Source of the DNA: Anaerolineae bacterium | Lineage (GTDB): Bacteria; Chloroflexota; Anaerolineae; Aggregatilineales; Phototrophicaceae | Reading direction: 5' to 3' | Assembly: GCA_025055175.1 (NCBI GenBank) | Contig: JANWYT010000027.1 | Span: forward strand, 62,001-126,000 | DNA: 64,000 bases | Part shown: positions 17,529-48,518 of the stretch, in pieces | Layout: every line of letters starts with the position of its first letter | Position numbering within the stretch: position 1 is the first letter of the stretch | Position numbers and translations under genes: made by a program | Notes under the pieces: model-generated | Database searches by the model: none | Told to the model about the DNA's origin: nothing | What the model saw: the letters and a program-made list of their open reading frames with translations, nothing else

Positions 17529-17632
17529 GTTTTCATGTCGCCATATATCGATATGACGGCCTTATAACGTTTGTGATACGCTCGCGAAGGTGGCATATTC
17601 CTCAAAAGCTGCCTGAAGTGGAGAAAAAATCC

Positions 17633-26600: not shown

Positions 26601-29600
26601 ACAGCAACTTCGGCCCGTCGCAGCCGCTCAACGGCCTCATCAGCAGCACCTACAACGGCCCCAGCAGCAACGACGGCGGTTACAACGCCCCGACGGTCAG
26701 CAACGCGCGCAACGACCGCCTCGACAATGGTCGCGACACGCTCAACCCGACCTTCGGCCTGCTGTCGCACACGATCGAATTGGCGCGCACCGCAGAGCCT
26801 GTCGGCGAGACGGACATCGGCCCGCAGGGCATTGGTGCAGGTGGCCAGGACAACAGCAGCAACTTGACTATCGACTTCGGCCTGTTCCGCCCGCTGAGCA
26901 TCGGCAACCGCGTCTGGCTGGACAACGGCGGCGGCGCGCTGACCAACAACGGCCTCCAGGACGCCATCGAAGTCGGCATTGCGGGCGTCGAACTGCGCCT
27001 CTACCGCTACATCGGCACGAATCCCACGCCGACCGACTACACGACCAATCCTGGTGACTACACGCCCGTGCTGGACGCCCTGAGCAACCCGCGCACTAGC
27101 ACCACCGACGCCAACGGCTACTACCTCTTCGACGGCCTGGGTCAGGGGATTTACGTCGTCGTCGTCGCGCCCAGCAACTTCGCACCTGGTGGCCCGCTGG
27201 AGAACTTCAACAACAGCACGCCCACCTTCGCTACGCCAGCCGACCGCAACGACAACGGCATCAACAACCCCAGCCCAGCTACGCTCGGCATCGCCAGCAA
27301 CCCCGTCACCCTCACGGTCGGCGGCGCGCCCACCGGCGAGACCGACCTGAGCGGCAACACAGTGGCGCACGGCCCCAACAGTCGCGGGCGCAATGGCGAA
27401 ACAGACAACAACAGCAACCTGACCATCGACTTCGGCTTCGTCCCGACGACCACGCTCAGCCTGGGCAACCGCGTCTGGATTGACGAAGGCCCGAACGGTC
27501 GCAACGGCGTGCTGGACGCCGGCGAGAGCGGGGCGGCCAACGTGCGCGTCAGCCTGTACTTCGACAGCAACAACGACGGCGCGCCGGACGGCCCAGCCAT
27601 CGCCACCACCATCACCGACGCTAACGGCTACTACCTGTTCGATAACCTAGCCCCAGGGCGCTACATCGTCGGCCTAGACGCCAGCAACTTCGTCGGTAGC
27701 GGCCCGCTGGTGGGCTACGGCAGCAGCCCCTACACCGGTCCCAGCAGCGCCAGCGGCGCTTACAACGCCCCGCCCAGCGCGACGCGCGACGACAACCGCG
27801 ACAACGGCATCGACAATCCAGCGCCCAACCTGGGCAACGGCATCATCAGCCACAGCATCCTGCTCCAGCCAGGCAACCAGTCCACCGTCGACAGCGACGT
27901 TGGCCCGCAAGGGACGGGCGCCGGCGGCGTCGACGCCAACAGCAACCTGACCATCGACTTCGGCCTGTACCGCCCGCTGAGCATCGGCAACCGCGTCTGG
28001 CTGGATAACGGCCCCGCCGCCCAGACCAACAACGGCCTGCAAGACCCCGGCGAGTTGGGCATCGCTGGCGTCATCGTAGAGCTGTACGCCGCCGATACCA
28101 CCACCGGCCAACGCATCGGCTCAGCCCTGGCCACCACCATCACCGACGCCAACGGCTACTACATCTTCGATGGCTTGTTGCCCGGCAGCTATGTCGTCTT
28201 CTTGCCGACTGTCAACTTCACGGGCAGCGGCCCGCTGGTCGGCATGACCAACAGCGTCCCCACCAACCCCAATCCGCTGACGGGCGAGCAAAATGTGGAT
28301 CGCAACGACAACGGCATCAACGATCCCACGCCAGCCGTCAACGGCATCGCCAGCAACATGATCGTGCTGGCCTACAACACCATGCCCACCAACGAGACCG
28401 ACCTGAGCGGCAACACGACGGCGCATGGCCCGAACAGCCGCGGTCGCAACGGCGAAGCCAACAACAACAGCAACCTGACGGTGGACTTCGGCTTCTTCGT
28501 CGATGGTGGCACGCGCATGAGCCTGGGCAACCGCGTCTGGCTGGACAACGGCGCGGGCGGCGGCACGGCCAACGACGGCACTCAGAACGGCGCAGAGCCA
28601 GGCGTCGATGGCGTGACGGTCGAGCTGTACGCCGACGCCGACGGCAATGGCGTCCCCGACAGCCTCACGCCGCTGGCCAGCACCGTCACGACGGGCGACG
28701 GCTACTACTTGTTCGATAACCTGCTGCCAGGACGCTACGTCGTCGTCATACCCGCCAGCAACTTCGACAACCCCACCGATCCGCTCTATGGCACGCTGAG
28801 CAGCACCGGCGCCTACACATCGCCCAGCAGCGGCCCGCGCACCGACCAGCTGGACAACGGCGTCGACGTCGTCAATCCGGCGGTCAGCGGCGTGCGCAGC
28901 GGCACGATCCAGCTGGTGCTGGGCAACGAGACGACGGGCGAGACCGACCTCGGCCCGCAGGGGACGGGGCTAGATGCTAACGGCAACCCCATCGCCGACA
29001 ACAACAGCAACCTGACCATCGACTTCGGCTTTGTGACGCGCTTTGACTGGGGCGACGCGCCCGACACCGGCGGCGCCTTCACCTTCCCCAACGGCAGCCC
29101 TGCCAACTACGGCACGAGCAACGCCACCGGCGGCCCCAGCCACCGCATCGTCAGCGGCCTATACATGGGCAGCCGCGTGGACGCCGAAAATGATGGCCAG
29201 CCCAACGCCCCCGCCGACGGCGACGACGTCAACGGCACGCCCGACGACGAGGACGGCGTGGTCTTCCCGCCGCTGGTCGCCGGCTTGCCCGCCCCCGTCC
29301 AGGTCACCGTCTTCAACAACACGGGCCAGCCCGCCACCCTGGTCGGCTGGATCGACTTCAACGGCAACGGCGTCTTCGACGCGAGCGAAGCCGTCAGCGC
29401 CACTGTCCCCAGCAGTACGACCCCACAGGTCATCACCCTGACTTTCACCGTCCCCGCCGGCTCTGACTTGCCCGCTCAGACGGGCGGCACGACCTACGCG
29501 CGCTTCCGCCTCAGCACCGACCCGACGCTGACGACTGGCACGCCTGGCGGCCCCGTCAACGACGGCGAGGTGGAAGATTACCGCGTCACCATCCAGCCGC

Positions 29601-30871
29601 CCGGCGTCTACATCAACAAGACGGACGGCCTGAACTCCATCGTCGTCGGCCAATCGACCACCTACACGGTGACGATCCGCAACAGCCCCAGCAACTCCAA
29701 CACGATCACGGGCAGGCCGTTCACGGACACGCTCGACTCGCGCTTCATCAACGTCTCGTGGACGTGCGTCGCCAACAACCTGGCCAGCTGCGTCACAGGG
29801 CAGGGCTTCGGCACGGGCGCGAGCGGCACAGGCAACATCGCCCTCAGCCTCGACTTGGCGCCTGGCGGCGAGATCATCATCACCATCAATGCCACGCTGC
29901 AGCTCAACGTCGTCCCGCCGCCCAACACCATCGTCAACGAAGCGCTGTTCTTGCCCGACCGCGCCGAAGACATCAACGGCATCATCTTCGATCCGCCCTT
30001 CGGCCAGAAGACAGGCGTCCACCTGGGCAACAACGTCATCCGTTGGACGATGGTCTGGTTCAACACGGGCCTGGCTCAAGCGGCTACCATCACCGACACG
30101 CTGCCACCCGGCCAGACCTTCCTGGGCAACCTGAACTGCACGGCCTTCGGCGCCAGCTCCACGACCAGCTGCACCTACAACCCGGCTACCTTCCAGGTGA
30201 TCTGGACGGGGACGATTGACCAAGGGCCGCCCAACCGCGTGGAGATCGCCTTCGACGTGACCGTCCCCGGCGACGGCAACTACAACAACGTCGCCACCCT
30301 GACCACCAGCAATGGTCAGCAGGCTGCCGCCTCGGCTGCTGTCGTCATCGGCGGGGACGAAGACGACGGCCAGGGCGGCGGCACGCCGGGCGTCTTCCTG
30401 GTCGATCCGGCCATCGTCAAGTTGGTGAACCCGCGCTTGGCCCTGCCGGGCGAGGTCATCACCTGGACGATCACCGTCACCAACCCCAACCCCGTCTCGG
30501 TCGATAACGTGACCGTGGTGGAGAACATGCCCGCCGAGTTCATCATCGACAGCGTGAGCGCTTCGCGCGGCACCGTGACGCGCAGCGGCCAGCGCCTCAC
30601 CATCAGCCTCGGCACGATGACAGCTGGCGAGCAGGTGACCATCATCGTCCAGACGCGCCTCAACCCGCGCGCCATCACCACCTCTAGCGTGACCAACGTC
30701 GCTGTCCTAGACGCGCCTTACAACAAGGAAGCTAGGGCCACCGTCGAAATTGTCAGCCGCCTGCCAGAGACGGGCGAAACGCCGCTGTGGCGCGACGCCT
30801 TGCTGCTAGGCCTGGCTCTGAGCCTGGCGGCCCTCGGCCTGGGCGCTGCTTGGCGGGCGCGCACCCGCTAG
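17633..30871 (+). CDS. Giant modular LPXTG surface protein with 15 SdrD-B-like modules
   Basis: A 4412-residue protein. The ATG at 17633 is chosen because GGAG lies nine bases upstream; an in-frame GTG at 17573 has no such site. Residues 1-45 hold a long signal peptide with the hydrophobic core LVLLVFILAQLFFVTSLVFA. Residues 45 to about 1030 are DUF11-like/adhesin-type beta domains. Fifteen SdrD-B-like modules follow, each opening with S(I/L)GNRVW(L/I)D and containing TTTD.NGYY.FD.L.PG.Y and a closing LT.DFGF. They start near nt 20726, 21449, 22007, 22541, 23126, 23672, 24218, 24764, 25298, 25871, 26397, 26897, 27458, 27980 and 28520. A GEVED-like domain (about 3803-3985) and two or more DUF11-like domains follow. 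The C terminus has LPETG (4377-4381), a membrane helix and an RARTR tail, a complete sortase sorting signal. SdrD-B modules are calcium-binding stalks in adhesins. Function here (adhesion or sheath) is inferred. Confidence 0.93.
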   Translation: MKPSINRHTPRLWSASPSQVKARHLVLLVFILAQLFFVTSLVFASGTLSLDVSIVDPTTPTVQTGQIVEYLIDFSCSSTSMNCGTLTINFTLDTELDFIEAIAPPGYNWTYNPVTRVLTIVNNPLINPTFDDGEAGQVTVRARVGQNLSDLQLNATVNGTITNGPGGNPITIPVPGPTLTILTPNGGWTLDKSKVSPADPVGPASGGQATYQLRACPGTTGVARMDTISFVDRFPEGAVPVAPLPTGATIHDELPAPSGNGINDTIRWTVDVTGTGPGGLWTANDGCITQTYTVEFPAAAFPPGTPINNTAYFSYVTPDGYPPVPGPCPTSCAGTDGNGTTSSNPVANLQADKDGPGTSAVIAPGLVNGTSVFTLNWNLSQANASVSGFIVQDIFPTTVAGPVQSIIDVQELGSGTWPGGHVAQLQTFDGTTWTTRATVNGSSNVVLTPPGGFPAGIRGMRLVFTGPVPPGFAPVTRPSIRFIIPDGLDPANYDQDGPGPLKYRDYNNCLTFSGTVAGGTFNAPGSVCEAFRVGKDNTDGFANILVSKTSSPSEVFPLEEITFTLTLSLTQEASSNLINPVIEDVLPFGMQALRVTGVNFSANMTPSEQVFPYVNIDTVTGTHPITAAPVSLQRLRFYWRNTPFGGSNYDLDSPAGSETFANPVPPTYNFSLIPDDDGAPVTGNPISIARPATGAKTITIQFVAMPRLDTPSGDNGGNQFVYANTTRTVANSPNLVCQSGMTGTDSGDIDGDGNTTETRCDTTGNYRIREAAQMSSQKWIRSVVGPFGFLDATNLNNPSPSCPIFTYDPSSTPPNTPVNYTRYPCVAQAVQGGAIEYLMRIQNSGLVNVNEFILYDVLSHVGDVGVSQATAGQPRFSEFRTFLTGPIVLEAIAKLPTGWPVADTPTFVIEYNEVTPHNNSCRPEMSNTATITPADHWQPGCNNTWVTTPSSWGAVTSFRIRQTGGLVPPGAELIFSAPAIVSNQTIPGGWEAETGEIAWNNFAQRFRNAPSGRRLLTAEPRKVGVIVPEVYSIGNRVWIDNGGGAGGIAGDGILNGTEAGINGVEVQLWTRTRPNPSSPYGAWSLFRTDTTRADTSTPGKDGFYFFGNLPGGINREYRVLIPHTQFSPGPDNTYGTLDDAILATYISSNYTGVDASGGAYQASQSNARLDQRDNGVNPGTFAGYTNATTGGDGFPNGGVRTQTFQLTRGQTSSLSTQGDQSTADNANANVNLDNTNPDAGPQRNEGQFGRGQDYERNDYSDLTRDFGFFTPMSIGNRVWRDDGRDLSAPNNFNQLLFNNGIQDGDELGIAGVQVRLQRDINLDGDFDDPGEGNFANTTTDANGYYIFDGLPPGNYRVLILNTNFTGSNPLAGLLSSYSPTAPVDAAPDRNDHGIDNANPAVNGILSPTITLQPPGGEPTGETDLSGNASAHGPLFRGRNGELDANSDLTVDFGFIAPLSIGNRVWIDDGRIGPGTYNPAQFDDGILNGAELGVQGVTVRLYFASNLTTPIATTTTDANGYYLFQYLPPGDYVVEIPSSNFVLGGPLYLHFSSTSVPAPVDATPNDRDHGIDVADPTVSPVRSPVIQLRPNQEPTNEDPANPTTNTGIGLGVFTGTGQPIRDSDSDLTVDFGFVRPVAIGNRVWLDDNSVGQLPGDGIRQATEVGINGVTVQLYLQGQTPGVDTPIASTVTANGGYYLFDRKGNNQADPNAARLGLGNYFVHIPASNFTGSGPLVGYINSDNGPATNGGDTGIDSVTGGGDENGQNTLVPTNPATYPTVTGVSSSIIQLGYDVEPLNEVDRDPTRLVDPDGRSVNDGSSDLTIDFGFYRPRMSIGNRVWLDNGAGGGLFGNGVQDGTEPGIANVVVNLYRDDDNNGVPDTAPGSPLASTTTDSNGYYIFDGLLPGRYIVTVAASNFASGGPLFEHGSSIGNYSAPTTANTRDDRRDNGIDNPNPTINYGVISHSVNLTLFGEPTNEAPGDLSGNPAHGPGFIGNNAEVNINSNMTIDFGFVRYMSLGNRVWLDDGAGGGTRNDGIQNGAEVGIDGVTVELYRDDNNDGVPDGPAIATTTTSGGGYYLFDGLFPGLYIVGIPASNFTGSGVLVGYDSSYDGHPTQPNLPTNDGVDRNDNGIDAPNPPATGVISRTIELAYDTEPTSETDLQTANPSALPGPNSRGRNNEANANSDLTIDFGFFPPRMSLGNRVWFDDGAGGGTRNNGLQDGAELGVANVVVNLYRDVNNDGQPDEPAASPFRTTTTDSNGYYIFDDLSPGRYIVTVAASNFTGSAPLAGFGSSTGNYSAPTTANTRDDRRDNGIDPVDYTTGYGVRSHVVTLTLYQEPTNEAPGDLSGNPAHGPGFIGNNGEFNANSNMTIDFGFVRYMSLGNRVWLDNGAGGGTRNDGIQNGAEPGIDGVTVQLFAADGAGNPTGPVLQTATTSGGGYYLFDGLFPGDYVVVIPASNFTGSGALVNFNSSYDGTGGNLLDNGVDRNDNGIDENLPAVNGVRSRAINLAYDAEPTSETDLQAPNPSALPGPNSRGRNNEANANSELTVDFGFVEPRYSLGNFVWYDYNNNGQYDTGFVGPAAFRNEAPAPGVTVRLYFSSGNDTSGRGIPTTPLSSPFRTTTTDANGYYLFDDLPAGNYVIWIDALNFRSVPTPGPLFEYRSSTDVYSAPTVSNARLDTRDNGVDEANPVVNGVYSTTISVTKNALPIGEPDLSSNPTHGPAGERRGNFGQLDSDSDLTRDFSFFKFMSIGNRVWLDPNNNGIVDAGESGIAGVTVQLWEDTDLDGTYETLRDTRLTNATGHYLFDGLLPGDYLVVIPASNFSSGGALDGLNSSNYTGPDNNSNGAYAAPTTASRLDNRDNGFPPTIGPFVGGVTSSPIQLRIDSEPTGETDLASGLGANGETNRNSNLTIDFGFVGDLLSLGNRVWLDPNNNGQQDTGENGIANVRVSLYRDVDNNGIPDGPAIQTTLTDANGYYLFDNLPPGRYIVGLDNSNFGPSQPLNGLISSTYNGPSSNDGGYNAPTVSNARNDRLDNGRDTLNPTFGLLSHTIELARTAEPVGETDIGPQGIGAGGQDNSSNLTIDFGLFRPLSIGNRVWLDNGGGALTNNGLQDAIEVGIAGVELRLYRYIGTNPTPTDYTTNPGDYTPVLDALSNPRTSTTDANGYYLFDGLGQGIYVVVVAPSNFAPGGPLENFNNSTPTFATPADRNDNGINNPSPATLGIASNPVTLTVGGAPTGETDLSGNTVAHGPNSRGRNGETDNNSNLTIDFGFVPTTTLSLGNRVWIDEGPNGRNGVLDAGESGAANVRVSLYFDSNNDGAPDGPAIATTITDANGYYLFDNLAPGRYIVGLDASNFVGSGPLVGYGSSPYTGPSSASGAYNAPPSATRDDNRDNGIDNPAPNLGNGIISHSILLQPGNQSTVDSDVGPQGTGAGGVDANSNLTIDFGLYRPLSIGNRVWLDNGPAAQTNNGLQDPGELGIAGVIVELYAADTTTGQRIGSALATTITDANGYYIFDGLLPGSYVVFLPTVNFTGSGPLVGMTNSVPTNPNPLTGEQNVDRNDNGINDPTPAVNGIASNMIVLAYNTMPTNETDLSGNTTAHGPNSRGRNGEANNNSNLTVDFGFFVDGGTRMSLGNRVWLDNGAGGGTANDGTQNGAEPGVDGVTVELYADADGNGVPDSLTPLASTVTTGDGYYLFDNLLPGRYVVVIPASNFDNPTDPLYGTLSSTGAYTSPSSGPRTDQLDNGVDVVNPAVSGVRSGTIQLVLGNETTGETDLGPQGTGLDANGNPIADNNSNLTIDFGFVTRFDWGDAPDTGGAFTFPNGSPANYGTSNATGGPSHRIVSGLYMGSRVDAENDGQPNAPADGDDVNGTPDDEDGVVFPPLVAGLPAPVQVTVFNNTGQPATLVGWIDFNGNGVFDASEAVSATVPSSTTPQVITLTFTVPAGSDLPAQTGGTTYARFRLSTDPTLTTGTPGGPVNDGEVEDYRVTIQPPGVYINKTDGLNSIVVGQSTTYTVTIRNSPSNSNTITGRPFTDTLDSRFINVSWTCVANNLASCVTGQGFGTGASGTGNIALSLDLAPGGEIIITINATLQLNVVPPPNTIVNEALFLPDRAEDINGIIFDPPFGQKTGVHLGNNVIRWTMVWFNTGLAQAATITDTLPPGQTFLGNLNCTAFGASSTTSCTYNPATFQVIWTGTIDQGPPNRVEIAFDVTVPGDGNYNNVATLTTSNGQQAAASAAVVIGGDEDDGQGGGTPGVFLVDPAIVKLVNPRLALPGEVITWTITVTNPNPVSVDNVTVVENMPAEFIIDSVSASRGTVTRSGQRLTISLGTMTAGEQVTIIVQTRLNPRAITTSSVTNVAVLDAPYNKEARATVEIVSRLPETGETPLWRDALLLGLALSLAALGLGAAWRARTR
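23126..25297 (+). repeat. Recent tandem duplication of a two-module block inside the giant gene
   Basis: Modules 5-6 (from 23126) and 7-8 (from 24218) are near-identical at the DNA level, with a period of 1092 bases (364 codons). For example, GTGCGCTACATGAGCCTGGG occurs at 23660 and 24752. Further downstream the phase shifts to 1080 bases because of a 12-base indel. The other modules are far more diverged, so this block was copied late. Confidence 0.85.
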
Positions 30872-38193: not shown

Positions 38194-38222
38194 TAAAATA
38201 GCCGCTGTTGACTTACGTCAAC
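38194..38222 (+). promoter_or_regulatory. -10 and operator-like palindrome of the BMP binding-protein operon
   Basis: TAAAAT (38194-38199) is a plausible -10. Seven bases downstream, GTTGAC (38207-38212) and GTCAAC (38217-38222) form a perfect inverted repeat around TTAC, at or just after the expected transcription start. Such a position suits a repressor operator. The start codon is at 38256 with GAGGAG upstream. Confidence 0.45.
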
Positions 38223-38255
38223 GGTCGAACATCCTTCCAGAGGAGACAAATATCG

Positions 38256-39479
38256 ATGAAACGCTTCACCCTTGCAGCCCTCGTGTTGGGCGTTGTGGCC
38301 ATGCTGAGCATGCCCGCCACAGCGCAAGACGAATTCATCTTCGGCATGATCTTGGTCGGCCCGCGCAACGATCGCGGCTGGAGTCAAGCGCACTTCGAAG
38401 GTGGCTTGTACGTCGAACAGAACATGCCCGGCGCCAAAATGCTGCTGTTTGAAAGCCTCAACCCCGCCGACGCGCCAGAAGCGACGCTGGAGAGCGTGGC
38501 CGCCGACATGATCGAACAAGGCGCTAAGCTCATCCTGACGACTTCCGACAGCTTTGAGAAGGACACCGACGCGGTGGCCGCTAAGTACCCCGACGTGATC
38601 TTCGTCAACATGAGCGGCAGCAACGCCCTAGAGATCAAGGCCCACGACCTCTTCGGTGGAGAAGCCGAAGAGGAGAACACCCCGCCCAACGTCGGCAACA
38701 TCATGCCGCAGATGGAATGGGACAAGCTGGTGGCCGGCTGCGCCGCCGCCCTGATGACCGAGACGGGCAGCATTGGCTACCTCGGCCCGCTCATCAACGC
38801 CGAGACGCGCCGCTTCGTCGCCTCTGCTTACCTAGGCGCGCGCCACTGTTACGAGACTTATCGTGGCAAGCCTGCCGATGAACTGACCTTCGCCGTCACC
38901 TGGATCGGCTTCTGGTTCAACATCCCTGGCGTGACGCTCGATCCCACTGCCGAGGTCAACACCTTCTTCGACAGCGGCGCCGACGTGGTCATCAGCGGCA
39001 TCGACACCACCGAAGCCGTCGTCGTCGCTGGGCGGCGCGCCAGCGAAGGCCAGCGCGTCTTCAGCGTGGCCTACGATAACAAGAGCGGCTGCGAAGAAGC
39101 CCCCGAATCTTGCCTGGGCGTCCCCTATTACAACTGGGGCATCGCCTATCTAGAATTGGCCGAAGCTGTCAAGGCTGGCACTTACGTCCCCGAATGGGAT
39201 TGGGTCGCCCCTAATTGGGACGACGTGAATGGCCCTAGCTCCATCGTCGGCTTCCTCAAGGGCCAGGGCCTGAGCGAAGAAGCTTCCGCTAACTTGGACA
39301 AGTTCACCGAGGAGATGGTGACCTTCGCCAAAGCTAACCCCGATGCCTTCTTCCTGTGGGAAGGCCCGCTGAGCTTGCAAGACGGCACGCCGCTGGCCGC
39401 TGAAGGCGAATTCGTCGACCCGCTCAAGATTTGGTATCTGCCGCAGCTCTTGGAAGGGATCATCGGCAAGAGCAGCTAG
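38256..39479 (+). CDS. BMP-family ABC transporter substrate-binding protein
   Basis: A 407-residue secreted protein. The start at 38256 (MKRFTLAALV) has GAGGAG upstream and begins a signal peptide ending near PATAQD; the longer frame from 38208 adds only an unlikely leader. There is no lipobox cysteine, unlike BmpA lipoproteins. The mature part starts FIFGMILVGPRNDRGWSQAH, typical of the Bmp family, and continues with the segments ADMIEQGAKLILTTS and AVVVAGRRASEGQRVFSVAYD. Bmp proteins bind purine nucleosides or related ligands. It heads the complete four-gene plus-strand importer and might also serve the minus-strand importer, which lacks a binding protein. Confidence 0.88.
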   Translation: MKRFTLAALVLGVVAMLSMPATAQDEFIFGMILVGPRNDRGWSQAHFEGGLYVEQNMPGAKMLLFESLNPADAPEATLESVAADMIEQGAKLILTTSDSFEKDTDAVAAKYPDVIFVNMSGSNALEIKAHDLFGGEAEEENTPPNVGNIMPQMEWDKLVAGCAAALMTETGSIGYLGPLINAETRRFVASAYLGARHCYETYRGKPADELTFAVTWIGFWFNIPGVTLDPTAEVNTFFDSGADVVISGIDTTEAVVVAGRRASEGQRVFSVAYDNKSGCEEAPESCLGVPYYNWGIAYLELAEAVKAGTYVPEWDWVAPNWDDVNGPSSIVGFLKGQGLSEEASANLDKFTEEMVTFAKANPDAFFLWEGPLSLQDGTPLAAEGEFVDPLKIWYLPQLLEGIIGKSS

Positions 39480-39490
39480 GCGCTCTCGTC

Positions 39491-39539
39491 CCTCATCCTC
39501 GGCCCTTCTCCTGCTGCCTTGCGGTGGGGGAGGGGCTTG
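39491..39539. repeat. Degenerate copy of the REP-like hairpin element
   Basis: CCTCATCC followed by a C/T-rich arm (CCCTTCTCC) and a G-rich arm (GGGGGAGGGG) can fold into an imperfect hairpin. It shares layout with 15278-15336 and again follows a binding-protein gene directly. Confidence 0.4.
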
Positions 39540-39569
39540 GGTTGAGCGTCGATCAAGCCAACACACCTC

Positions 39570-41024
39570 ATGGAAATTGTCCTCAAGAACATCAGCAAAC
39601 GCTTTGGGGCGGTGCGGGCCAATCAAGACATCAGCGTCGCCTTCTACAGTGGGCGAATCGTCGGCGTGCTGGGCGAGAACGGGGCGGGCAAGTCCACCTT
39701 GATGAAGATTCTCAGCGGCTTCCAGGCAGCCGACAGCGGCGAAATTTGGCTGGATGGCCAGCGAGTGCGCTATCGCGGGGCGCAAGAGGCGGTGCGCGCC
39801 GGGCTGGGCATGCTCCAACAAGACCCGCTAGACGTGCCAGCCTTCACCGTGCTGGAGAACTTCGTCTTCGGCAACCCCAACCTGGCCAACCCACGCCAGA
39901 AGCTGGCCGAGCTGGCCGCGCGCTTCGGCTTCCACCTAGATGCCGACGCACTGTGCGGGCAGCTCTCCATCGCTCAGCGCCAGCAACTGGAGATTGTGCG
40001 CCTGCTGGCCCTGGGCGTGCGCGCTCTCATCCTGGATGAGCCGACGACGGGCATCAGCGCGGAGCAAAAGGAGCTGCTGTTCAGCACGCTGCGTCGCCTG
40101 GCCCGCGAAGAGGGTATGACCGTGCTGCTGGTCAGCCACAAGTTAGAAGACGTGATTGCCCTGTGCGACGAGGTGATCGTGTTGCGCGGCGGCCGCCTGG
40201 TGGGGCGGACTAGTATGCCCACCACGCCGCAAGCGCTGGTGGCCATGATGTTCGAAGAGCTGTCGCCCATCGATGCGCGCCCTAGCTTGCCTTTAGGCCA
40301 AACTGCTTTGCGCGTGGAAAGCCTGCACTTACACGTGGATCGTCTGCACCTGCACAACCTGAACTTCAGCTTGCGCGGCGGCGAGACGGTAGGCCTGGCC
40401 GGCCTGGACGGCAGCGGCCAAGAAGCCTTCCTGCGCGTCTGCGCCGGCCTGTTGCGCCCCCAGCGCGGACGAGTCTGCGTTGGCGAGCAAGACTTCACCC
40501 ATCGCAGCTACCGCGACTTCCGTCGCGCAGGCGTCTACTTCACGGCGGCAGGCCGCCTAGAAGAAGGCCTCATCGCTGGCTTGACCCTGACCGAACACGT
40601 GGCCCTGACCGATGAAGGCGACGACGGCGCCGCCTGGATCAACTGGATTGACGCTGAGAAGCGGGCTGCTGCGCGCATTGCCCGCTACCAGGTGCGCGGC
40701 CAGCCCTACAGCCCGATTGAGACGCTCAGCGGCGGCAACCAACAGCGCGTCCTCATCTCTCTGCTGCCCGAACATCCGCGCGCCCTGCTGCTCGAACAGC
40801 CTACGCGCGGCCTGGACGTGGACTCCACTCGCTGGATTTGGCAGCAGCTGGAAGCGCGCCGCCAGCAGGGGGCGGGGATCGTCTTCAGCAGCGCCGAATT
40901 GGATGAGCTGGTCACCTACAGCGACCGCATCTTGGTCTTCTATGAAGGGCGCTGCGTAGAAGTAGCTGACGTGCGCCAGACCAGCGCCGACGCGCTGGGC
41001 CACTTGATCGGAGGCAACTTCTGA
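39570..41024 (+). CDS. BMP-family ABC transporter ATPase, double nucleotide-binding domain
   Basis: A 484-residue ATPase. The first domain has Walker A GENGAGKST (residues 36-44) and Walker B ALILDEPTTGIS, with a divergent signature LSIAQRQQLEI in place of LSxGQQQ. The second domain has a degenerate P-loop (GLDGSGQEA), signature LSGGNQQR, and ALLLEQPTRGLDVD, in which the Walker B Asp is Glu and the catalytic Glu is Gln. The second site is therefore probably not hydrolytic. It lies 90 bases after the binding-protein gene and 2 bases before the first permease. No good ribosome-binding site precedes the ATG. Confidence 0.88.
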   Translation: MEIVLKNISKRFGAVRANQDISVAFYSGRIVGVLGENGAGKSTLMKILSGFQAADSGEIWLDGQRVRYRGAQEAVRAGLGMLQQDPLDVPAFTVLENFVFGNPNLANPRQKLAELAARFGFHLDADALCGQLSIAQRQQLEIVRLLALGVRALILDEPTTGISAEQKELLFSTLRRLAREEGMTVLLVSHKLEDVIALCDEVIVLRGGRLVGRTSMPTTPQALVAMMFEELSPIDARPSLPLGQTALRVESLHLHVDRLHLHNLNFSLRGGETVGLAGLDGSGQEAFLRVCAGLLRPQRGRVCVGEQDFTHRSYRDFRRAGVYFTAAGRLEEGLIAGLTLTEHVALTDEGDDGAAWINWIDAEKRAAARIARYQVRGQPYSPIETLSGGNQQRVLISLLPEHPRALLLEQPTRGLDVDSTRWIWQQLEARRQQGAGIVFSSAELDELVTYSDRILVFYEGRCVEVADVRQTSADALGHLIGGNF

Positions 41025-41026
41025 AC

Positions 41027-42079
41027 ATGCGTGCTTGGAGAGACTTCGTCTTCGGCTTGCTGCCCATCAGCTTCTCGCTGCTAGTGACGGCCTTGCTGAT
41101 CGTCCTGGTGGGCAAAGACCCACTGGAGGTAGCCCGTGTGCTGTGGAGTGGGGCGTTCGGCACGAGCGAGACGCTGGCCAGCGTCGTCAACTTCTGGATT
41201 CCGCTGACGCTGGCAGCGCTAGGCCTGGTCGTCACCTTCCGCGCCGGCTTGTGGAACATCGGCGTCGAAGGCCAGATCATGATCGGCGCTGTCGCTGCCA
41301 GCGGCGTAGCCCTGTACGTCAAAGGCTTGCCTAGCCCACTGCTGATCGGCCTGAGCATGGCGGCAGCCGTGATGGCAGGAGCGCTGCTGGGGGCGCTGAT
41401 TGGCTTCCTGAAGCTGCGCTTGGGGGTGAACGAAATCTTCGGCGGGGTAGCCCTGAACGCTCTGGTCAACGTCGCCTCCATCTACCTCATCAGCGGCCCC
41501 TGGCAACCCGCCGAAGGCGGCAGCGCCCAAGCCACCAGCCCCTTCCCAATGGATGCGCGCTTGCCTCTCATCAGTCCCATCTTCCCCACCAGCTTGCTCA
41601 TGCTCGTCCTCACGGTGCTGGCCATCGGCCTGATCATCCGCCTGCTGAGCGGCACGCGCTGGGGCTTGCAACTCAAAGCAGTGGGCAAGAACCCGCGCTC
41701 GGCGTTGTTGTTGGGCGTGCCGACGGGGCGCAGCGTCTTCAGCGCGTTGGCGCTGTGCGGCTTGCTAGCTGGCTTGGGCGGAGCGCACCGCGTGCTGGAT
41801 ACTTACTACAGCCTGCGACCATTGGTCAGCGGCGGCATTGGCTTCTTGGCTTTGCTGGTGGTGCTGCTGGCGGCTATGCGCGCTCTGTGGGCGCCCCTCA
41901 TCGCCTTCGTCTTCGCGGCCATCTTGGGCGGCACGACGCGCGTGCGCATTCGCCTCCAGCTCGATCCCTCGCTGGCGGGGGTGCTGCAAGGGCTGATCGT
42001 GCTGACAGTCGTGCTGTTCCAGGGCATTCGCGAGCGCTATTTCGCCCATCACGATGAGAGCATCGAAGAGAAGGTCTGA
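41027..42079 (+). CDS. BMP-family ABC transporter permease (YufP-like)
   Basis: A 350-residue inner-membrane permease of normal length for the family. GGAGG lies upstream within the ATPase end. The hallmark LVVTFRAGLWNIGVEGQIMIG falls near residues 67-87. This is the direct counterpart of the enlarged minus-strand permease at 32348-34552 and shows what that protein would be without its insert. The stop overlaps the next start by one base (TGATG). Confidence 0.9.
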   Translation: MRAWRDFVFGLLPISFSLLVTALLIVLVGKDPLEVARVLWSGAFGTSETLASVVNFWIPLTLAALGLVVTFRAGLWNIGVEGQIMIGAVAASGVALYVKGLPSPLLIGLSMAAAVMAGALLGALIGFLKLRLGVNEIFGGVALNALVNVASIYLISGPWQPAEGGSAQATSPFPMDARLPLISPIFPTSLLMLVLTVLAIGLIIRLLSGTRWGLQLKAVGKNPRSALLLGVPTGRSVFSALALCGLLAGLGGAHRVLDTYYSLRPLVSGGIGFLALLVVLLAAMRALWAPLIAFVFAAILGGTTRVRIRLQLDPSLAGVLQGLIVLTVVLFQGIRERYFAHHDESIEEKV

Positions 42080-43077
42080 TGGACTCTGTCTTGCAAAATA
42101 CCCTGAACACAGTCGTCTCCAATGCTACACCGCTGGTGATCGCGGCCCTAGGCGAGACGATCACAGAGCGAGCTGGCGTCATCAACCTGTCGCTGGACGG
42201 CAGCCTAGCCCTGAGCGCTATGGTCGGCTTCGTAGCAGCCTACGCCGCCCAGCGGAGCGGGGTCAGCGCGCCCGTCGCCCTGGCGCTGGGGGTGACTTCG
42301 GCGGCCTTGATCGGGGCATTGATGGCCCTCATCATCGCCTGGGGCGGGATCACGCTGCGCCGCGACCAGGTGGCGGTGGGCTTCATCCTCACGTTGCTGG
42401 CCGCCGATTTGGCCCAATTCCTGGGCCAGGACTACACGCGCATCCCTGGCCCGACCTTCCCCACAGTGCCTGTGCCGTTCCTGGTCGACCTTCCCGTCGT
42501 CGGGCCGATCCTGTTCCGCCATAGCTTGTTCGTCTACTTCAGTTACGTGCTGCTGATCGTCTGCTGGTGGTGGCTGTTCCGCACCCAGGGCGGCCTGGCT
42601 CACCGCGCCATCGGCGAACGGCCCGCTTCGGCCTATGCGCGCGGCGTGGACGTGAATGGCCTGCGCTACCTTTATACGATCCTGGGCGGGGCGCTGGTGG
42701 GCGTCGCCGGGGCCGCCTTCTCGCTCAATCTGAAGCCTGGCTGGGCCAATCCGCCCTCCATGCGCGGCGATGGTTGGATTGCGCTGGCCATCGTCATCTT
42801 CGGCGGCTGGCATCCCTTCCGCGTGCTGCTGGGGGCATATTTGTTTGCGGCGCTGCGCGCCTTCGCCAGCGCCGCCCAGCGCAGCGGCGACGTCGGCATT
42901 CCGCTGGTGCTACTGAACGCCATCCCCTGGCTGGCCATGATCCTCACGCTGGTCTTCGTCAGCAGCGGCGTCTTGGAACGACTGCTGCGCGTCCTGCCGC
43001 GCGCCGTCCAAAACCGCGCTCGCGCCCTGCTGCGCAGCGATCCGCCCGCTGCCCTGGGGACGCGCTTCGAGCCTTGA
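42079..43077 (+). CDS. BMP-family ABC transporter permease (YufQ-like)
   Basis: A 332-residue inner-membrane permease. The segment ITERAGVINLSLDGSLALSA near residues 29-48 matches the family hallmark (ERsGV.N...EG). Multiple membrane helices follow to the end, and a basic tail completes it. It ends the four-gene operon (binding protein, ATPase, two permeases), and the promoter of the next gene overlaps its last codons. Confidence 0.9.
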   Translation: MDSVLQNTLNTVVSNATPLVIAALGETITERAGVINLSLDGSLALSAMVGFVAAYAAQRSGVSAPVALALGVTSAALIGALMALIIAWGGITLRRDQVAVGFILTLLAADLAQFLGQDYTRIPGPTFPTVPVPFLVDLPVVGPILFRHSLFVYFSYVLLIVCWWWLFRTQGGLAHRAIGERPASAYARGVDVNGLRYLYTILGGALVGVAGAAFSLNLKPGWANPPSMRGDGWIALAIVIFGGWHPFRVLLGAYLFAALRAFASAAQRSGDVGIPLVLLNAIPWLAMILTLVFVSSGVLERLLRVLPRAVQNRARALLRSDPPAALGTRFEP

Positions 43078-43102
43078 CTGATATATTATGAAGCATTAAA
43101 AT
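43074..43102 (+). promoter_or_regulatory. Promoter of paralogue 1
   Basis: TTGACT (43074-43079) and TAAAAT (43097-43102) are 17 bases apart. Expected transcription starts near 43109, which rules out the in-frame GTG at 43108 as start codon and supports GTG at 43138. Confidence 0.65.
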
Positions 43103-43137
43103 AATGAGTGTCCTATAAAAAGCGAAAGTTTGCCGCT

Positions 43138-43536
43138 GTGCCTATCACCTACGGTTGGTATGACGAAGCCAAGCACATCTGGATGATCGAATTCAGGGGA
43201 CACTGGACGTTGGACGACTTCTGGCGCATGGTCGATGCCTGCTACCAAGCCATTGACTCAGTTGCTCCGCACGCCTTCTACTACGTCACCGTAATGCACG
43301 GCAGCATGTATTTGCCCAAAGGCGCATTCTCAGCCATTCAGAGCGCCAGCAGCCAGACGCGGCCCAACGAGCGTATGCACGTCTTGGTAGGTGGTGGCAT
43401 GATCGTCAAGTCCTTCTTCCGAATGCGCAACTTTTTCATGCCCAAAGAGCGCCTGGAGTTAGCTGATACCCTAGAAGAAGCCCTGGCCATGATTGAGCAG
43501 GTTATCGCTCAAGATCAAATGCAACAGGCTTCCTGA
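43138..43536 (+). CDS. Five-member small-protein family, paralogue 1
   Basis: A 132-residue protein if started at GTG 43138 (VPITYGWYDEAK...), the point where all paralogues begin; an upstream GTG at 43108 would add ten residues but falls at the transcription start. The layout is GWYDEAKHIW, a helix with WTLDDFW, APHAFYYVT, a conserved VLVGGGMI strand and a final ADTLEEALAMIEQ helix. There is no signal peptide or membrane helix. The alternating strand-helix pattern and the closing T.EEAL helix resemble SpoIIAA/STAS-like folds, but that is inference. Function unknown. It is the first of five tandem copies and lies just behind a BMP importer. Confidence 0.85.
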   Translation: MPITYGWYDEAKHIWMIEFRGHWTLDDFWRMVDACYQAIDSVAPHAFYYVTVMHGSMYLPKGAFSAIQSASSQTRPNERMHVLVGGGMIVKSFFRMRNFFMPKERLELADTLEEALAMIEQVIAQDQMQQAS

Positions 43537-43570
43537 GCTTCTTCACAGCCCTTGATTCCATCAGCTTCGC

Positions 43571-43600
43571 TTGCTAAGCTTTAAAGGTTGTCTTTATAAG
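43571..43600 (+). promoter_or_regulatory. Promoter of paralogue 2
   Basis: TTGCTA (43571-43576) and TATAAG (43595-43600) are 18 bases apart, 24 bases before the ATG at 43624. Confidence 0.45.
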
Positions 43601-43623
43601 CTGAGCTGAAAGATCGTGCGCTT

Positions 43624-44019
43624 ATGCCCATCACCTTCGGCTGGTACAATGAAGCCAAGCACATCTGGATTCAAGAATTCAGCAATTACTGGACGATGGA
43701 AGAGTTTTGGGTTGCGGCAGACGAAGCCTACAAGGCCATCGACGCCATCGCCCCGCACAAGTTCTACATCATCTCCGACATGACCAGCAGCATGCGTTTG
43801 CCGCCCGGCCTGCTCTCAGCGACGCGCAGTATCTTGCAACGCAAACGCAACAACGAAGCGCTGCACGTGCTGGTCGGGGGAGGGGTCATCATCCACTCGC
43901 TCTATCAGATGGCCAGGCCCGCTACCAAACAGTACTTACGTCTGGCCAACACCCTGGAAGAGGCCTTGGCCATGATCGACGAAGCCATTGCTCAGGATCA
44001 GGTCGGCAGCTCAGGTTAA
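43624..44019 (+). CDS. Five-member small-protein family, paralogue 2
   Basis: A 131-residue cytoplasmic protein. Conserved positions are GWY (6-8), HIW (13-15), APHKFY (43-48), LPPG (59-62), HVLVGGG (81-87) and LANTLEEAL (107-115). It differs from its neighbours by a basic ILQRKRNNE segment before the VGGG strand. The upstream ribosome-binding site is weak. Divergence from paralogue 1 is substantial, so the duplication is old. Function unknown. Confidence 0.85.
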   Translation: MPITFGWYNEAKHIWIQEFSNYWTMEEFWVAADEAYKAIDAIAPHKFYIISDMTSSMRLPPGLLSATRSILQRKRNNEALHVLVGGGVIIHSLYQMARPATKQYLRLANTLEEALAMIDEAIAQDQVGSSG

Positions 44020-44046
44020 GTCTGAAGCAAAGATGCTCACTCGTCC

Positions 44047-44075
44047 TTAACTTTTTGCAGCAGAGCCTCTATAAT
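44047..44075 (+). promoter_or_regulatory. Promoter of paralogue 3
   Basis: TTAACT (44047-44052) and a consensus TATAAT (44070-44075) are 17 bases apart, 43 bases before the ATG at 44119. A GGAG ribosome-binding site lies between. Confidence 0.65.
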
Positions 44076-44118
44076 GTAGCGACATTAAGAACAAGCTGTC
44101 GCTGGAGATTCTGCTAAC

Positions 44119-44526
44119 ATGCCCATTAAGGTCGGTTGGTACGATGAGCGTCAGCGCATTTGGTCGCAGGTCTTCACAGGCTCTTGGACGCTCGATGAGT
44201 ACTGGGAGTCAGTCGACAAGACCCACCGTGCGCTCGACTCAGTCGCACCTCATCCTGTTTACATCTTCACCGAAATTCGCGGAACATTGCGCCTGCCGCC
44301 CGGCATGCTGACGGCGCTGCGCACCGTCAGCGCGCAGGCACGAGCGCATGAGCGCATTCACGTCATCATCGGCGGCGGCATGATCGTCCGCTCGCTCTTC
44401 CGCGTCGGCCAGGCTATCGTCCCCAATCCCCACATTCGCCTGGCAGACACCCTAGAAGAAGCGCTGATGTTGATTGAGCAGATGATCGTCCACGACCAGA
44501 CTCGCGCCAAGCAGGGCAGCGAGTAG
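44119..44526 (+). CDS. Five-member small-protein family, paralogue 3
   Basis: A 135-residue cytoplasmic protein beginning MPIKVGWYDERQRIWSQVF. It keeps WTLDEYW, SVAPHPVYIF, LPPGML, ERIHVIIGGGMIVRSLF and LADTLEEALMLIEQ. The tail is longer and hydrophilic. GGAG lies upstream and it has its own promoter. A structured inverted-repeat region follows its stop. Function unknown. Confidence 0.85.
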   Translation: MPIKVGWYDERQRIWSQVFTGSWTLDEYWESVDKTHRALDSVAPHPVYIFTEIRGTLRLPPGMLTALRTVSAQARAHERIHVIIGGGMIVRSLFRVGQAIVPNPHIRLADTLEEALMLIEQMIVHDQTRAKQGSE

Positions 44527-44584
44527 TAGCCATCGCCTTCTCTTCCCGCTCCGCTGCGATCTCCAAGCTGCGCCAGACCAGCCT

Positions 44585-44641
44585 AGGAGCGCTCTAGCGA
44601 GGGACGACACGTCGTGCGCAGCCACTTGCCTGAGCGCTCCT
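44585..44641. other. Nested inverted repeats between paralogues 3 and 4
   Basis: AGGAGCGCTC (44585-44594) pairs perfectly with GAGCGCTCCT (44632-44641). Inside, ACGAC (44604-44608) pairs with GTCGT (44611-44615). Each outer arm is itself palindromic (GAGCGCTC), so it may be a pair of protein-binding sites, a structured RNA or a terminator without a T-run. Confidence 0.5.
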
Positions 44642-44787
44642 GCCCAAGTCTCGGATTTGATTGAGCGAGCTATTCAAGGCAGCTCCTGGAATTCACCAAA
44701 GATCAAGATTTTTGAACATCGCATAGCAAAAGTCGGTCATAATATTAGAGTAAGCTATTAACAGCAATAACAATAGGAAATTGGTCT

Positions 44788-45180
44788 ATGCCTATCCGAG
44801 TTCAGTGGCACGACGAAGCTCGGCGTATTTGGTACCAAGAATTTGAGGGCCATTGGACTTTAGGCGAGTTCCGCCAAGCTATGGAGCAGTCGAACCAAGC
44901 CGCCGAGTTGGTTGCTCCACATCCTCTTTACATCGTTGCCAACATGATAGGGCCTATCTACTTTCCGCCCAACATCATCGCTGCTCTGCACCAAGCCAGC
45001 TTGGAAGTGCGCCCCAACATATGCCTGCACATCATCGTCGGAGGTGGCCAAGTGGTACAAGCGCTGTACGCCCTACCGACAGTCCAGAAGCTCAATCCTC
45101 ACGTGCGCCTGGCTGACACCACCGAAGAAGCCCTCGCCATGATTGAACAAGCGGCAGCGGAGAAGTGCAGCAGTGTATAA
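44788..45180 (+). CDS. Five-member small-protein family, paralogue 4
   Basis: A 130-residue cytoplasmic protein beginning MPIRVQWHDEARRIWYQEFE. It keeps WTLGEF, APHPLYIV, ICLHIIVGGGQVVQAL and LADTTEEALAMIEQ, but has QWH instead of GWY and FPPN instead of LPPG, making it one of the more divergent copies. A possible promoter (TTGAAC 44712, CATAAT 44738) has a 20-base spacer and is weaker than those of the other copies. Function unknown. Confidence 0.85.
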   Translation: MPIRVQWHDEARRIWYQEFEGHWTLGEFRQAMEQSNQAAELVAPHPLYIVANMIGPIYFPPNIIAALHQASLEVRPNICLHIIVGGGQVVQALYALPTVQKLNPHVRLADTTEEALAMIEQAAAEKCSSV

Positions 45181-45230
45181 GACGCGCTAGAGGTTTGCGT
45201 CACACGTCCAACTCCCTGTGTGCCTCGTCA

Positions 45231-45259
45231 TTCACAGCTCAGATATCGTTGGTTATTCT
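45231..45259 (+). promoter_or_regulatory. Promoter of paralogue 5
   Basis: TTCACA (45231-45236) and TATTCT (45254-45259) are 17 bases apart. GGAGG lies upstream of the ATG at 45300. Confidence 0.55.
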
Positions 45260-45299
45260 AGGATAGGCGAGAGCGCTAGGCACGTTTGGAGGATGACAG

Positions 45300-45722
45300 A
45301 TGGGCCTCAAAGTTCATTGGTATGACGAAGCTCGGCGCATTTGGTACCAGGAAGCGTTCGGCACATGGACGGTAGACGACTACTGGGAGAGCGTCAGGAT
45401 CACTCACGCGGCCTTCGACGCCGTCCACCCTGACCCTGTTTATACGGTGACGGTGTTCCGCGGCCCGCTGTACCTGCCACCGGGCATTATGTCGGCGCTG
45501 CGCAGCGCCAGTGGCCAGGTGCGGCCCAACGAGCGAATCTTGGTCTACGTCGGCGGAGGGCTGCTGGCGCGCTCCATCTTCAAAGTGCGCAACCTGATCG
45601 ACCCGAACGACCACACCGCTCTGGCCAACACCCTCGACGAAGCCCTCAAGCTGATCGAAGAGGTCATCGCCTACGACAAGACCCTGCCAGACATTGGCCC
45701 GCACAACCGCCCCAGGCGCTGA
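45300..45722 (+). CDS. Five-member small-protein family, paralogue 5
   Basis: A 140-residue cytoplasmic protein beginning MGLKVHWYDEARRIWYQEAF. It keeps WTVDDYW, VHPDPVYTV, LPPGIMSALRSAS, RPNERILVYVGGGLLARSIF and LANTLDEALKLIEE. A good GGAGG ribosome-binding site precedes it. It is the last copy; gabT starts 58 bases further on. Function unknown. Confidence 0.85.
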   Translation: MGLKVHWYDEARRIWYQEAFGTWTVDDYWESVRITHAAFDAVHPDPVYTVTVFRGPLYLPPGIMSALRSASGQVRPNERILVYVGGGLLARSIFKVRNLIDPNDHTALANTLDEALKLIEEVIAYDKTLPDIGPHNRPRR

Positions 45723-45780
45723 ATACCGTCCATCTTGCGCTATACTAGGCCCAAAACCTTAGCGCAGAGATGGATGAGTC

Positions 45781-47076
45781 ATGCTTGATACACCAATCAC
45801 CCGCACCGAAGAACTGCTGCTTATGCGCCAGGACGCCATTCCGCGCGGCCTAGCAACGGCCCATCCAATTGTCTTAGCGCGCGGACAGGGCGCGCGCGTC
45901 TGGGACGTGGAGGACAAAGAATACATCGACTTCATCGGCGGCATTGGCGTGCTGAACGTGGGCCACAACCACCCGCGCGTGGTGGCCGCCGTCGTGCGGC
46001 AAGCCCAACAGCTCATGCACACCTGCTTCCAGGTGGCTATGTACGAGCCGTATATCCACCTGGCCCGCGCCCTCAACCGCGCCATGCCCGGCGGCGTACA
46101 GGCCAAATCCGTCCTGTTCACCAGCGGCGCAGAAGCCACCGAGAACGCCATCAAGATCGCCCGCGCCTACACAGGCCGCCCTGGCGTCATCGCCTTCAGC
46201 CACAGCTTCCACGGCCGCACCCTGCTGGGCATGAGCCTCACCGGCAAGGCCAATCCCTACAAGCAGAACTTTGGCCCGTTCGCTCCAGAGGTTTACCGCG
46301 CCCCTTACCCCTACGAATACTGGGGCTGGACGACCGAGAAAGCGCTAGAGGGCCTGCGCGAGCTGTTCGAGACACAAGTCAGCCCCGACCGCGTGGCCGC
46401 TATCATCATCGAACCCGTCCTGGGCGAAGGCGGCTTTGTGCCAGCCCCGATAGACTTCCTGCGCGCCCTGCGCCAGCTGTGCGACCAGCACGGGATCGTC
46501 TTCATCGACGACGAAATCCAGAGCGGCTTTGGTCGCACGGGCAAGCTGTATGCCATCGAACATAGCGGCGTGACGCCTGACCTGGTGACCTTCGCCAAGA
46601 GCGTGGGCGGCGGTCTGCCCATCAGCGGCGTGACGGGCAAAGTCGCCATCATGGACGCGCCACAGCCTGGCGGCCTGGGCGGCACGTTCGGCGGCAACGT
46701 GCTGGCCTGTGCAGCGGCTCTGGCCGTCTTCGACATCTTTGAGCGCGAAGACCTGCTGGCGCGCGGCCAAGCGTTGGGCCAGACGCTGCGCGACGCCTTC
46801 GAGGCCTGGCAGCGCCGCTATCCGCAGATCGGCGACGTGCGCGGCCTCGGCCCTATGCTGGGCCTGGAATTCGTGAGCGACCGCCAGACGCGCCAACCAG
46901 CTCCGCACCTGGTGAGCCAGATCGTGGAGCGCGCTCGCGAGCGCGGCCTGCTGCTGCTGAAAGCCGGCATGTACGGTAGCGTCATCCGCGTCCTCGTGCC
47001 GCTGGTGGCCAGCGACGACGACATCGACCAAGCGCTGGACGTTTTTGCGGCTGCGCTGGCCGACGTGCTGGGATAG
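45781..47076 (+). CDS. gabT: 4-aminobutyrate aminotransferase, class III PLP enzyme
   Basis: A 431-residue fold-type I aminotransferase. VLFTSGAEATENAIKIARAY is the phosphate-binding region. FIDDEIQSGFGRTG contains the Asp that contacts the pyridine ring. TFAKSVGGGLPISGV carries the PLP-binding Lys273. A C-terminal GDVRGLGPMLGLEF segment matches class III enzymes. GabT converts GABA and 2-oxoglutarate to succinate semialdehyde and glutamate. The assignment over ornithine or beta-alanine transaminases rests on overall resemblance and on the succinate-semialdehyde dehydrogenase gene that follows after 11 bases. A TATACT -10-like element lies at 45741. Confidence 0.88.
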   Translation: MLDTPITRTEELLLMRQDAIPRGLATAHPIVLARGQGARVWDVEDKEYIDFIGGIGVLNVGHNHPRVVAAVVRQAQQLMHTCFQVAMYEPYIHLARALNRAMPGGVQAKSVLFTSGAEATENAIKIARAYTGRPGVIAFSHSFHGRTLLGMSLTGKANPYKQNFGPFAPEVYRAPYPYEYWGWTTEKALEGLRELFETQVSPDRVAAIIIEPVLGEGGFVPAPIDFLRALRQLCDQHGIVFIDDEIQSGFGRTGKLYAIEHSGVTPDLVTFAKSVGGGLPISGVTGKVAIMDAPQPGGLGGTFGGNVLACAAALAVFDIFEREDLLARGQALGQTLRDAFEAWQRRYPQIGDVRGLGPMLGLEFVSDRQTRQPAPHLVSQIVERARERGLLLLKAGMYGSVIRVLVPLVASDDDIDQALDVFAAALADVLG

Positions 47077-47087
47077 GGAGAGAGGGC

Positions 47088-48518
47088 ATGAGCGGTTACG
47101 CCTGGCCCGCCTGGGCCGAAGCCATCCTACAGGCTCGGCCAGAGCGCAGCTTTGCAGTGCGCAGCCCGTCCAGTGGTCAGGTCGTGGCCTACGTGGCCGA
47201 CCAAGACGAGGACGCGGCGCGCCAAGCTGTTGAACGCAGCGTTGCTGCCTTCGAGCAGTGGCGGCAGACCACGCCTTACGAACGCGCCGCCTTGCTGCGC
47301 CGCTGGTTCAACGCCATCACCGAACACGCCCCCACGCTGGCCCGCCTCACCGCCCTAGAGATGGGCAAGCCCATCACCGAAGCGCTAGGAGAGGTGCGCT
47401 ACGCCGCCGCCTTCGTAGAGTGGTACGCTGAAGAAGCCAAGCGTGTCTACGGCGACGTCATCCCCAACCACCTGCCTCACAAGCGCCTGTTCGCCATCAA
47501 GCAGCCCGTCGGGCCGGCCTACGCCATCACCCCCTGGAACTTCCCCTCAGCGATGGTGACGCGCAAAGCCGCGCCTGCTCTGGCCGCTGGCTGCACCATG
47601 ATCCTCAAACCTGCCGAACAATCGCCGCTCACTGCTCTGGCCCTGGCAGCCCTGTGGCAGCAAGCAGGCGGCCCGCCCGACGCCTTCATCGTCCTCACTT
47701 GCGCCGATCCCGTCCTCGTCTCGCAGGTCATGTTCGCTGACGAGCGGGTGCGCAAGCTCAGCTTCACGGGCAGCACGGAAGTCGGCCAGCTGCTCTACCG
47801 CCAGGCATCGCAGACGGTCAAGCGCCTGTCGCTGGAATTGGGCGGTCACGCCCCCTTCATCGTCTTCGACGACGCCGACGTAACCCACGCCGTGCGCGAA
47901 GTCGTCGCCAGCAAGTTCCGCAACGCCGGCCAGACCTGCGTCTGTGCCAACCGCATTTACGTGCAGGCGGGCATCGCCCAGGCTTTTGGCGAACAGTTGG
48001 CTCAGGCAGTGGCCGCTTTGCGCCTGGGCGACCCGCTGGACGAAGCGACGCAGATTGGCCCGCTGGTAGACGAAGTTGGCTTGGCCAAAGTGCAGCGCCA
48101 CGTCGACGACGCCCGTCAGCGCGGCGCGCGCCTGCTAGTGGGCGGGGCGGGACAGGGGGGCTTGTTCTTCCAGCCCACCGTCCTGGCCGACGTGAGCCGC
48201 GACGCCCTCATCATGACGGAAGAGACCTTCGGCCCCGTCGCGCCGCTCGTGCCGTTTGAGGCGGAAGACGAAGTCATACGCCTGGCCAACGACACGCCCT
48301 TTGGCCTGGCCGCCTACCTGTACACCGAGAACATCGCGCGCGGGGTGCGCGTGGCAGAAGCGCTGGAATACGGCATTGTCGGCCTGAACGATGGCGTCCC
48401 TAGCACGGCGCAAGCCCCCTTCGGCGGCGTCAAGCAGAGCGGCATAGGCCGCGAGGGCGGCAAGTGGGGCATTGAAGAATACCTTGAGGTAAAGTATATC
48501 TCCTTGGCCTTGCGCTAG
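47088..48518 (+). CDS. gabD: Succinate-semialdehyde dehydrogenase (NAD(P)+)
   Basis: A 476-residue aldehyde dehydrogenase of typical GabD length. ITPWNFPSAMVTRKAAPALA is the family's nucleotide-binding and substrate segment. LSLELGGHAPFIV carries the general base Glu250, and NAGQTCVCANR carries the nucleophile Cys284, the spacing expected for the family. The PFGGVKQSGIGREGGKWGIEEY ending (shown in part) is characteristic of GabD. It oxidises succinate semialdehyde to succinate, feeding the TCA cycle. It is co-transcribed with gabT, together forming the GABA degradation pathway. A good ribosome-binding site (GGGAGAGAGG) precedes it. Confidence 0.9.
   Translation: MSGYAWPAWAEAILQARPERSFAVRSPSSGQVVAYVADQDEDAARQAVERSVAAFEQWRQTTPYERAALLRRWFNAITEHAPTLARLTALEMGKPITEALGEVRYAAAFVEWYAEEAKRVYGDVIPNHLPHKRLFAIKQPVGPAYAITPWNFPSAMVTRKAAPALAAGCTMILKPAEQSPLTALALAALWQQAGGPPDAFIVLTCADPVLVSQVMFADERVRKLSFTGSTEVGQLLYRQASQTVKRLSLELGGHAPFIVFDDADVTHAVREVVASKFRNAGQTCVCANRIYVQAGIAQAFGEQLAQAVAALRLGDPLDEATQIGPLVDEVGLAKVQRHVDDARQRGARLLVGGAGQGGLFFQPTVLADVSRDALIMTEETFGPVAPLVPFEAEDEVIRLANDTPFGLAAYLYTENIARGVRVAEALEYGIVGLNDGVPSTAQAPFGGVKQSGIGREGGKWGIEEYLEVKYISLALR

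Follow-up and report, generated by a model that had tools for sequence, protein, structure and literature searches.

A tandem array of five small paralogous proteins with a predicted STAS/SpoIIAA-like fold in an Anaerolineae bacterium

The closest described systems

STAS proteins (PF01740), among them SpoIIAA, RsbV, RsfB and RsbS, bind their partners at the face formed by the ends of strands beta-3 and beta-4. The SpoIIAA motif consists of an Asp, the phospho-Ser and the next Ser, which we take to correspond to Pro60, position 61 and position 62 of the family described below. The broad SpoIIAA-like fold also extends to the CRAL-TRIO/SEC14 proteins (CRAL_TRIO_2, PF13716), carriers that are much larger than the proteins considered here, and to SiaC (6kko, 7e6g), a small single-domain protein of the same fold class. 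In the SpoIIAA-like proteins of DUF3478 (PF11964; structures 2q3l and 2ook) the phospho-Ser is mostly missing and a GxLxH-like motif is kept, and the role proposed for 2q3l and 2ook is that of a nonpolar-ligand carrier or an interfacial enzyme rather than an adaptor (PMC2954212). MlaB is a STAS protein that serves as a subunit in an ABC transporter (PMC7367683).

The locus studied here comprises five neighboring genes in a window of 64,000 nucleotides (by "window" we mean the whole stretch of DNA that was analyzed). Their products share with STAS proteins a predicted fold and topology, a turn motif before alpha-1, and conserved residues where beta-3 and beta-4 end; they differ from them in having no match to PF01740, no phospho-Ser and no kinase neighbor, and in carrying a signature of their own in Trp7, Trp23 and Pro60. 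They resemble the DUF3478 proteins in length, in fold and in the absence of a conserved phospho-Ser (PMC2954212), yet none of the five matches PF11964, though some of their relatives do so weakly. SiaC is a weak structural match, with lower TM-scores of about 0.4-0.5, and neither a SiaB kinase nor a diguanylate cyclase lies beside the array.

The five genes, their family and their predicted fold

All five genes are intact open reading frames on one strand, spanning 43138-45722, and each encodes a STAS-like paralogue. Gene 1 (43138..43536, +; 132 aa) begins with a GTG that matches the MPI... start of the other four, an in-frame GTG upstream at 43108 being a possible alternative. It is followed, across gaps of 87, 99, 261 and 119 bases, by gene 2 (43624..44019, +; 131 aa), gene 3 (44119..44526, +; 135 aa), gene 4 (44788..45180, +; 130 aa), which is the most diverged, and gene 5 (45300..45722, +; 140 aa), which has a longer C-terminal tail. 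The first-pass annotation had described a tandem array of five strongly diverged paralogues, and the alignment bears this out, with 23 invariant columns and pairwise identities of 36-53%. When gene 3 is used as the query, the other four are recovered at E = 1e-34 to 1e-44, and the next relative in the genome at 8e-8. Conservation among the five is lowest at third codon positions, and dN (0.39-0.71) lies below a dS that is near-saturated (1.25-3.1), so that dN/dS is about 0.5 or lower; these are therefore real, selected genes rather than a chance pattern, and all five are under purifying selection.

That the proteins belong to no named family, as was first supposed, agrees with a search of Pfam and NCBIfam profiles, in which none of the five gave a match above cut-off. 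None passes the curated cut-off of PF01740, for which the genome's sole match is a gene on another contig (C33, discussed below), or that of PF11964, for which the best score in the genome is 23.1 bits against a cut-off of 25, and the CRAL_TRIO_2 profile matches none of the five. A literature search covering open-licence papers returned no description of the family, and a search for phage or plasmid relatives of gene 3 found none. Weak matches to NCBIfam, PHROGs and PADLOC entries involved only single proteins or single members, and we treated them as chance.

At least 14 members are encoded in the window's own genome. Across this genome and 40 relatives, members (E <= 0.01) occur in 29 of the 41, with a maximum of 23 in one genome; outside the window's own order they are rare (21 of 298 in a sample of the class, 7 of 400 in one of the phylum). 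In an alignment of 126 members, conservation is highest at Trp7 (98%), Ala115 (97%), Pro60 (85%) and Trp23 (73%), followed by Val84 (71%), Thr24 (68%), Asp at position 52 (67%) and Gly85 (61%), a signature clear enough that the family is ready for a Pfam entry. The only clear multi-domain member that we found, in a related genome (G003; L118:4927-6099), joins a STAS-like domain to pentapeptide repeats.

AlphaFold models of the products of gene 3 (pLDDT 95.2, pTM 0.87, 42 sequences) and gene 4 (pLDDT 91.8, pTM 0.85, 81 sequences) have a common order of elements, beta-beta-alpha-beta-alpha-beta-alpha-beta-alpha, with alpha-3 split into two pieces in gene 4. In Foldseek searches of the PDB, the leading matches to both models are nearly all STAS or SpoIIAA-like; they include RsfB (8ih8), the STAS structures 4xs5 and 4hyl, and DUF3478 (2q3l and 2ook, at TM-scores of 0.55-0.69), as well as SpoIIAA (1th8, 1thn, 1tid and 1til), RsbS, the stressosome and SLC26 STAS domains. 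Probabilities are mostly 0.9-1.0, and TM-scores for single-domain targets about 0.55-0.72. On these models the products of genes 3 and 4 have a STAS/SpoIIAA fold, in agreement with an initial guess made from the strand and helix pattern, and genes 1, 2 and 5 would share it by homology. Roadblock proteins, the other fold then named for comparison, are missing from the best 50 Foldseek matches of either model.

Since the Foldseek E-values are modest (7e-4 at best) and the genome's canonical STAS protein gives no significant score when profiles are compared, with a short stretch aligned in the same register, we regard the link to STAS as structural and not as secure by sequence. A sequence profile matched 4hyl in the PDB at E 0.011-0.042, with the register matching. 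PF11964 and CRAL_TRIO_2, each matched weakly by 4 of 81 relatives, are the only Pfam families matched by more than one relative, and one bridging member of the family (C20:59619-59981) matches PF11964 at 3.6e-4 and the family profile at 5e-11. The top of the PDB sequence search, 6c2u (a "phosphate-loop protein"), matched over two strand-helix stretches only, and we do not consider it a relative.

Possible roles: adaptors or carriers

In the predicted secondary structure, Asp52, Pro60 and Val84-Gly85 fall where strands beta-3 and beta-4 end and helix alpha-2 begins. A conserved surface around the VGGG strand had been named as supportive evidence, and the conserved residues do gather at these strand ends. 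We place the working site, most probably, on the usual STAS face, where alpha-2 and alpha-3 would begin next to the C-terminal ends of beta-3 and beta-4. The register of positions 60-62 was taken from the 4hyl profile matches and from the comparison with the canonical STAS profile. In this register residues 61-62 are K-G, P-G, P-G, P-N and P-G in genes 1 to 5, so that the phosphorylatable Ser expected at the start of alpha-2 is absent from all five; across the 126 members Ser or Thr occupies position 61 in 18% and position 62 in 13%, and the family as a whole has no preference for them. With Pro or Lys followed by Gly or Asn at this site, phosphorylation of a Ser in the usual place cannot switch binding. 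The suggestion of regulatory switching therefore finds no support in its SpoIIAA-type, phosphorylation-dependent form, and protein-protein switching without phosphorylation is possible.

Given that the phosphorylatable Ser is missing, the proteins are most economically read as binding proteins that work independently of phosphorylation. Each gene would yield a stand-alone, single-domain protein of the STAS/SpoIIAA fold, presumably cytosolic, and we suggest, with roughly even confidence, that the five serve as adaptors, either constitutive or responsive to a ligand, much as RsbS, MlaB or SiaC do.

The chief competitor, which we consider possible and clearly the less probable of the two, is that the five are small proteins that carry or sense nonpolar molecules, like those of the DUF3478/CRAL-TRIO branch of the SpoIIAA-like fold. 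The DUF3478 structures are among the closest folds, the two Pfam families that recur, weakly, among the relatives are both of this branch, hydrophobic residues are abundant in alpha-3, and the DUF3478 proteins likewise mostly lack the phospho-Ser while keeping their GxLxH-like motif (PMC2954212). On the other hand, the hydrophobic moments of alpha-2 and alpha-3 do not clearly exceed those of the genome's canonical STAS protein, and true STAS proteins rank as well or better in Foldseek. We prefer the adaptor reading, and the data do not separate the two.

A further observation that speaks for carriers, and the best clue to what the family at large does, comes from an orthologue group that is not among the five. 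In eight genomes of six genera (G000, G004, G007, G008, G016, G021, G289 and G322) its STAS-like gene lies directly downstream of a lipoprotein gene, in a two-gene unit found at L063:4414-5556 and also at L083, L094, L071, L134, L135, L136 and L024. The lipoproteins are about 240-290 aa long, and the one scanned, from L063, has no Pfam match. An ABC exporter comes next after the pair in four of these genomes (G008, G016, G289 and G322).

Surroundings and expansion of the array

The array is flanked by a PnrA-type ABC transporter (38208-43077) and by an aminotransferase/aldehyde dehydrogenase pair (45781-48518). It begins 60 bases past the last permease and on the same strand, an arrangement that might suggest that the five are accessory or regulatory subunits of the transporter; MlaB offers a precedent (PMC7367683), and in some genomes an ABC exporter comes after the lipoprotein-paired orthologue. 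We think this very unlikely. The permease is present in 18 relatives, none of which has a family gene after it (0/18), and the gene that does follow varies between genomes; the site is therefore a variable one, and we reject the transporter as a linked partner. In addition, a promoter-like site within the gap (43074..43102, +; TTGACT-17-TAAAAT) separates gene 1 from the permease. Similar sites precede gene 3 (44047..44075, +; TTAACT-17-TATAAT) and gene 5 (45231..45259, +; TTCACA-17-TATTCT). All three were recognized by match to the consensus, and five such sites were observed in the region against 1.5 expected. With these sites, and with upstream regions that, when compared, have no detectable similarity among the five genes, independent expression of the array genes seems plausible. 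Neither an RNA family in 41000-48000 nor a tRNA anywhere in the window was found.

The flanking genes scanned include no kinase, phosphatase or sigma partner, as the first reading of the locus had also reported, and across about 60 family loci no neighbor is generally kept. Large sensor-type proteins recur most often as neighbors, and the longest of them has GAF/kinase-like sequence; they lie at scattered distances, as abundant genes would, and we do not regard them as partners. Elsewhere in the window, a single open reading frame of 4432 aa (17573-30871), in which SdrD B-like and carboxypeptidase-regulatory-like domains are numerous and a DUF11 domain lies near the end, probably encodes a giant surface protein.

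Recurrent multi-copy arrays, which had been named as supportive evidence, are present at many loci in many genera, in 2 to 12 copies. Neighboring family genes are on the same strand in 37 of 37 pairs; the largest array seen has 12 members in 8 kb (G021, L060:34-7872) and belongs to a subfamily distinct from the window's, one of four is found in G012 and one of three in G307, and many loci have two. In a tree of 113 members, built on few columns and unresolved in its deep branching, the window, G021, G012 and G307 arrays each form one group with respect to the other arrays (SH-aLRT 98-100), although with midpoint rooting the G021 branch also includes three other members, and many two-gene pairs are mutual closest relatives. 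Because the larger arrays are separate clades, tandem expansion has occurred many times. An old expansion had been proposed for the five genes, and their sequence divergence agrees with this; the five are, however, a single clade without equivalent in the relatives, which places the expansion in the window's lineage.

One could suppose that such arrays are redundant or selfish local duplications of little functional meaning, given their variable genomic sites and unconserved neighbors, but purifying selection, the maintenance of five intact copies at 36-53% identity and the recurrence of arrays in many genera make this very unlikely. Less tenable still, and largely refuted, is the idea that the five are classical anti-anti-sigma factors in a partner-switching system that includes an RsbW/SpoIIAB-type kinase and a PP2C phosphatase: their fold is identical in class, and the genome has a single canonical STAS gene, a single SpoIIE-type phosphatase above cut-off and one strong match to RsbW-like kinases, but the phospho-Ser and the PF01740 match are each found in 0/5, at least 14 family members would face one such kinase, and that kinase gene, not adjacent to the array, immediately follows the canonical STAS gene, with its FMSSAG motif, on a different contig (C33; L106:2184-3121).

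We propose that the array arose by tandem duplication within the window's lineage and that the copies then diverged in alpha-2, alpha-3, their tails and their upstream regions, a divergence that would let each copy be expressed separately and bind a different partner or ligand. Repeated local expansion followed by divergence suggests diversification of partners or ligands. More tentatively, and with less than even confidence, we suggest that the family is a largely lineage-restricted, undescribed and phosphorylation-free branch of STAS (W7, GxWT, P60, VG), repeatedly expanded in tandem into a per-genome repertoire of small switches or carriers. If this is true, each genome would have a set of binding switches or carriers of its own, rather as genomes have repertoires of receptors. 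Some genomes of this lineage devote a dozen to over twenty genes to one unnamed family of small proteins, which has been multiplied independently in one genus after another, and the partner or ligand, once identified, would explain a conspicuous part of such genomes and reveal how the STAS fold works without a phosphorylation switch.
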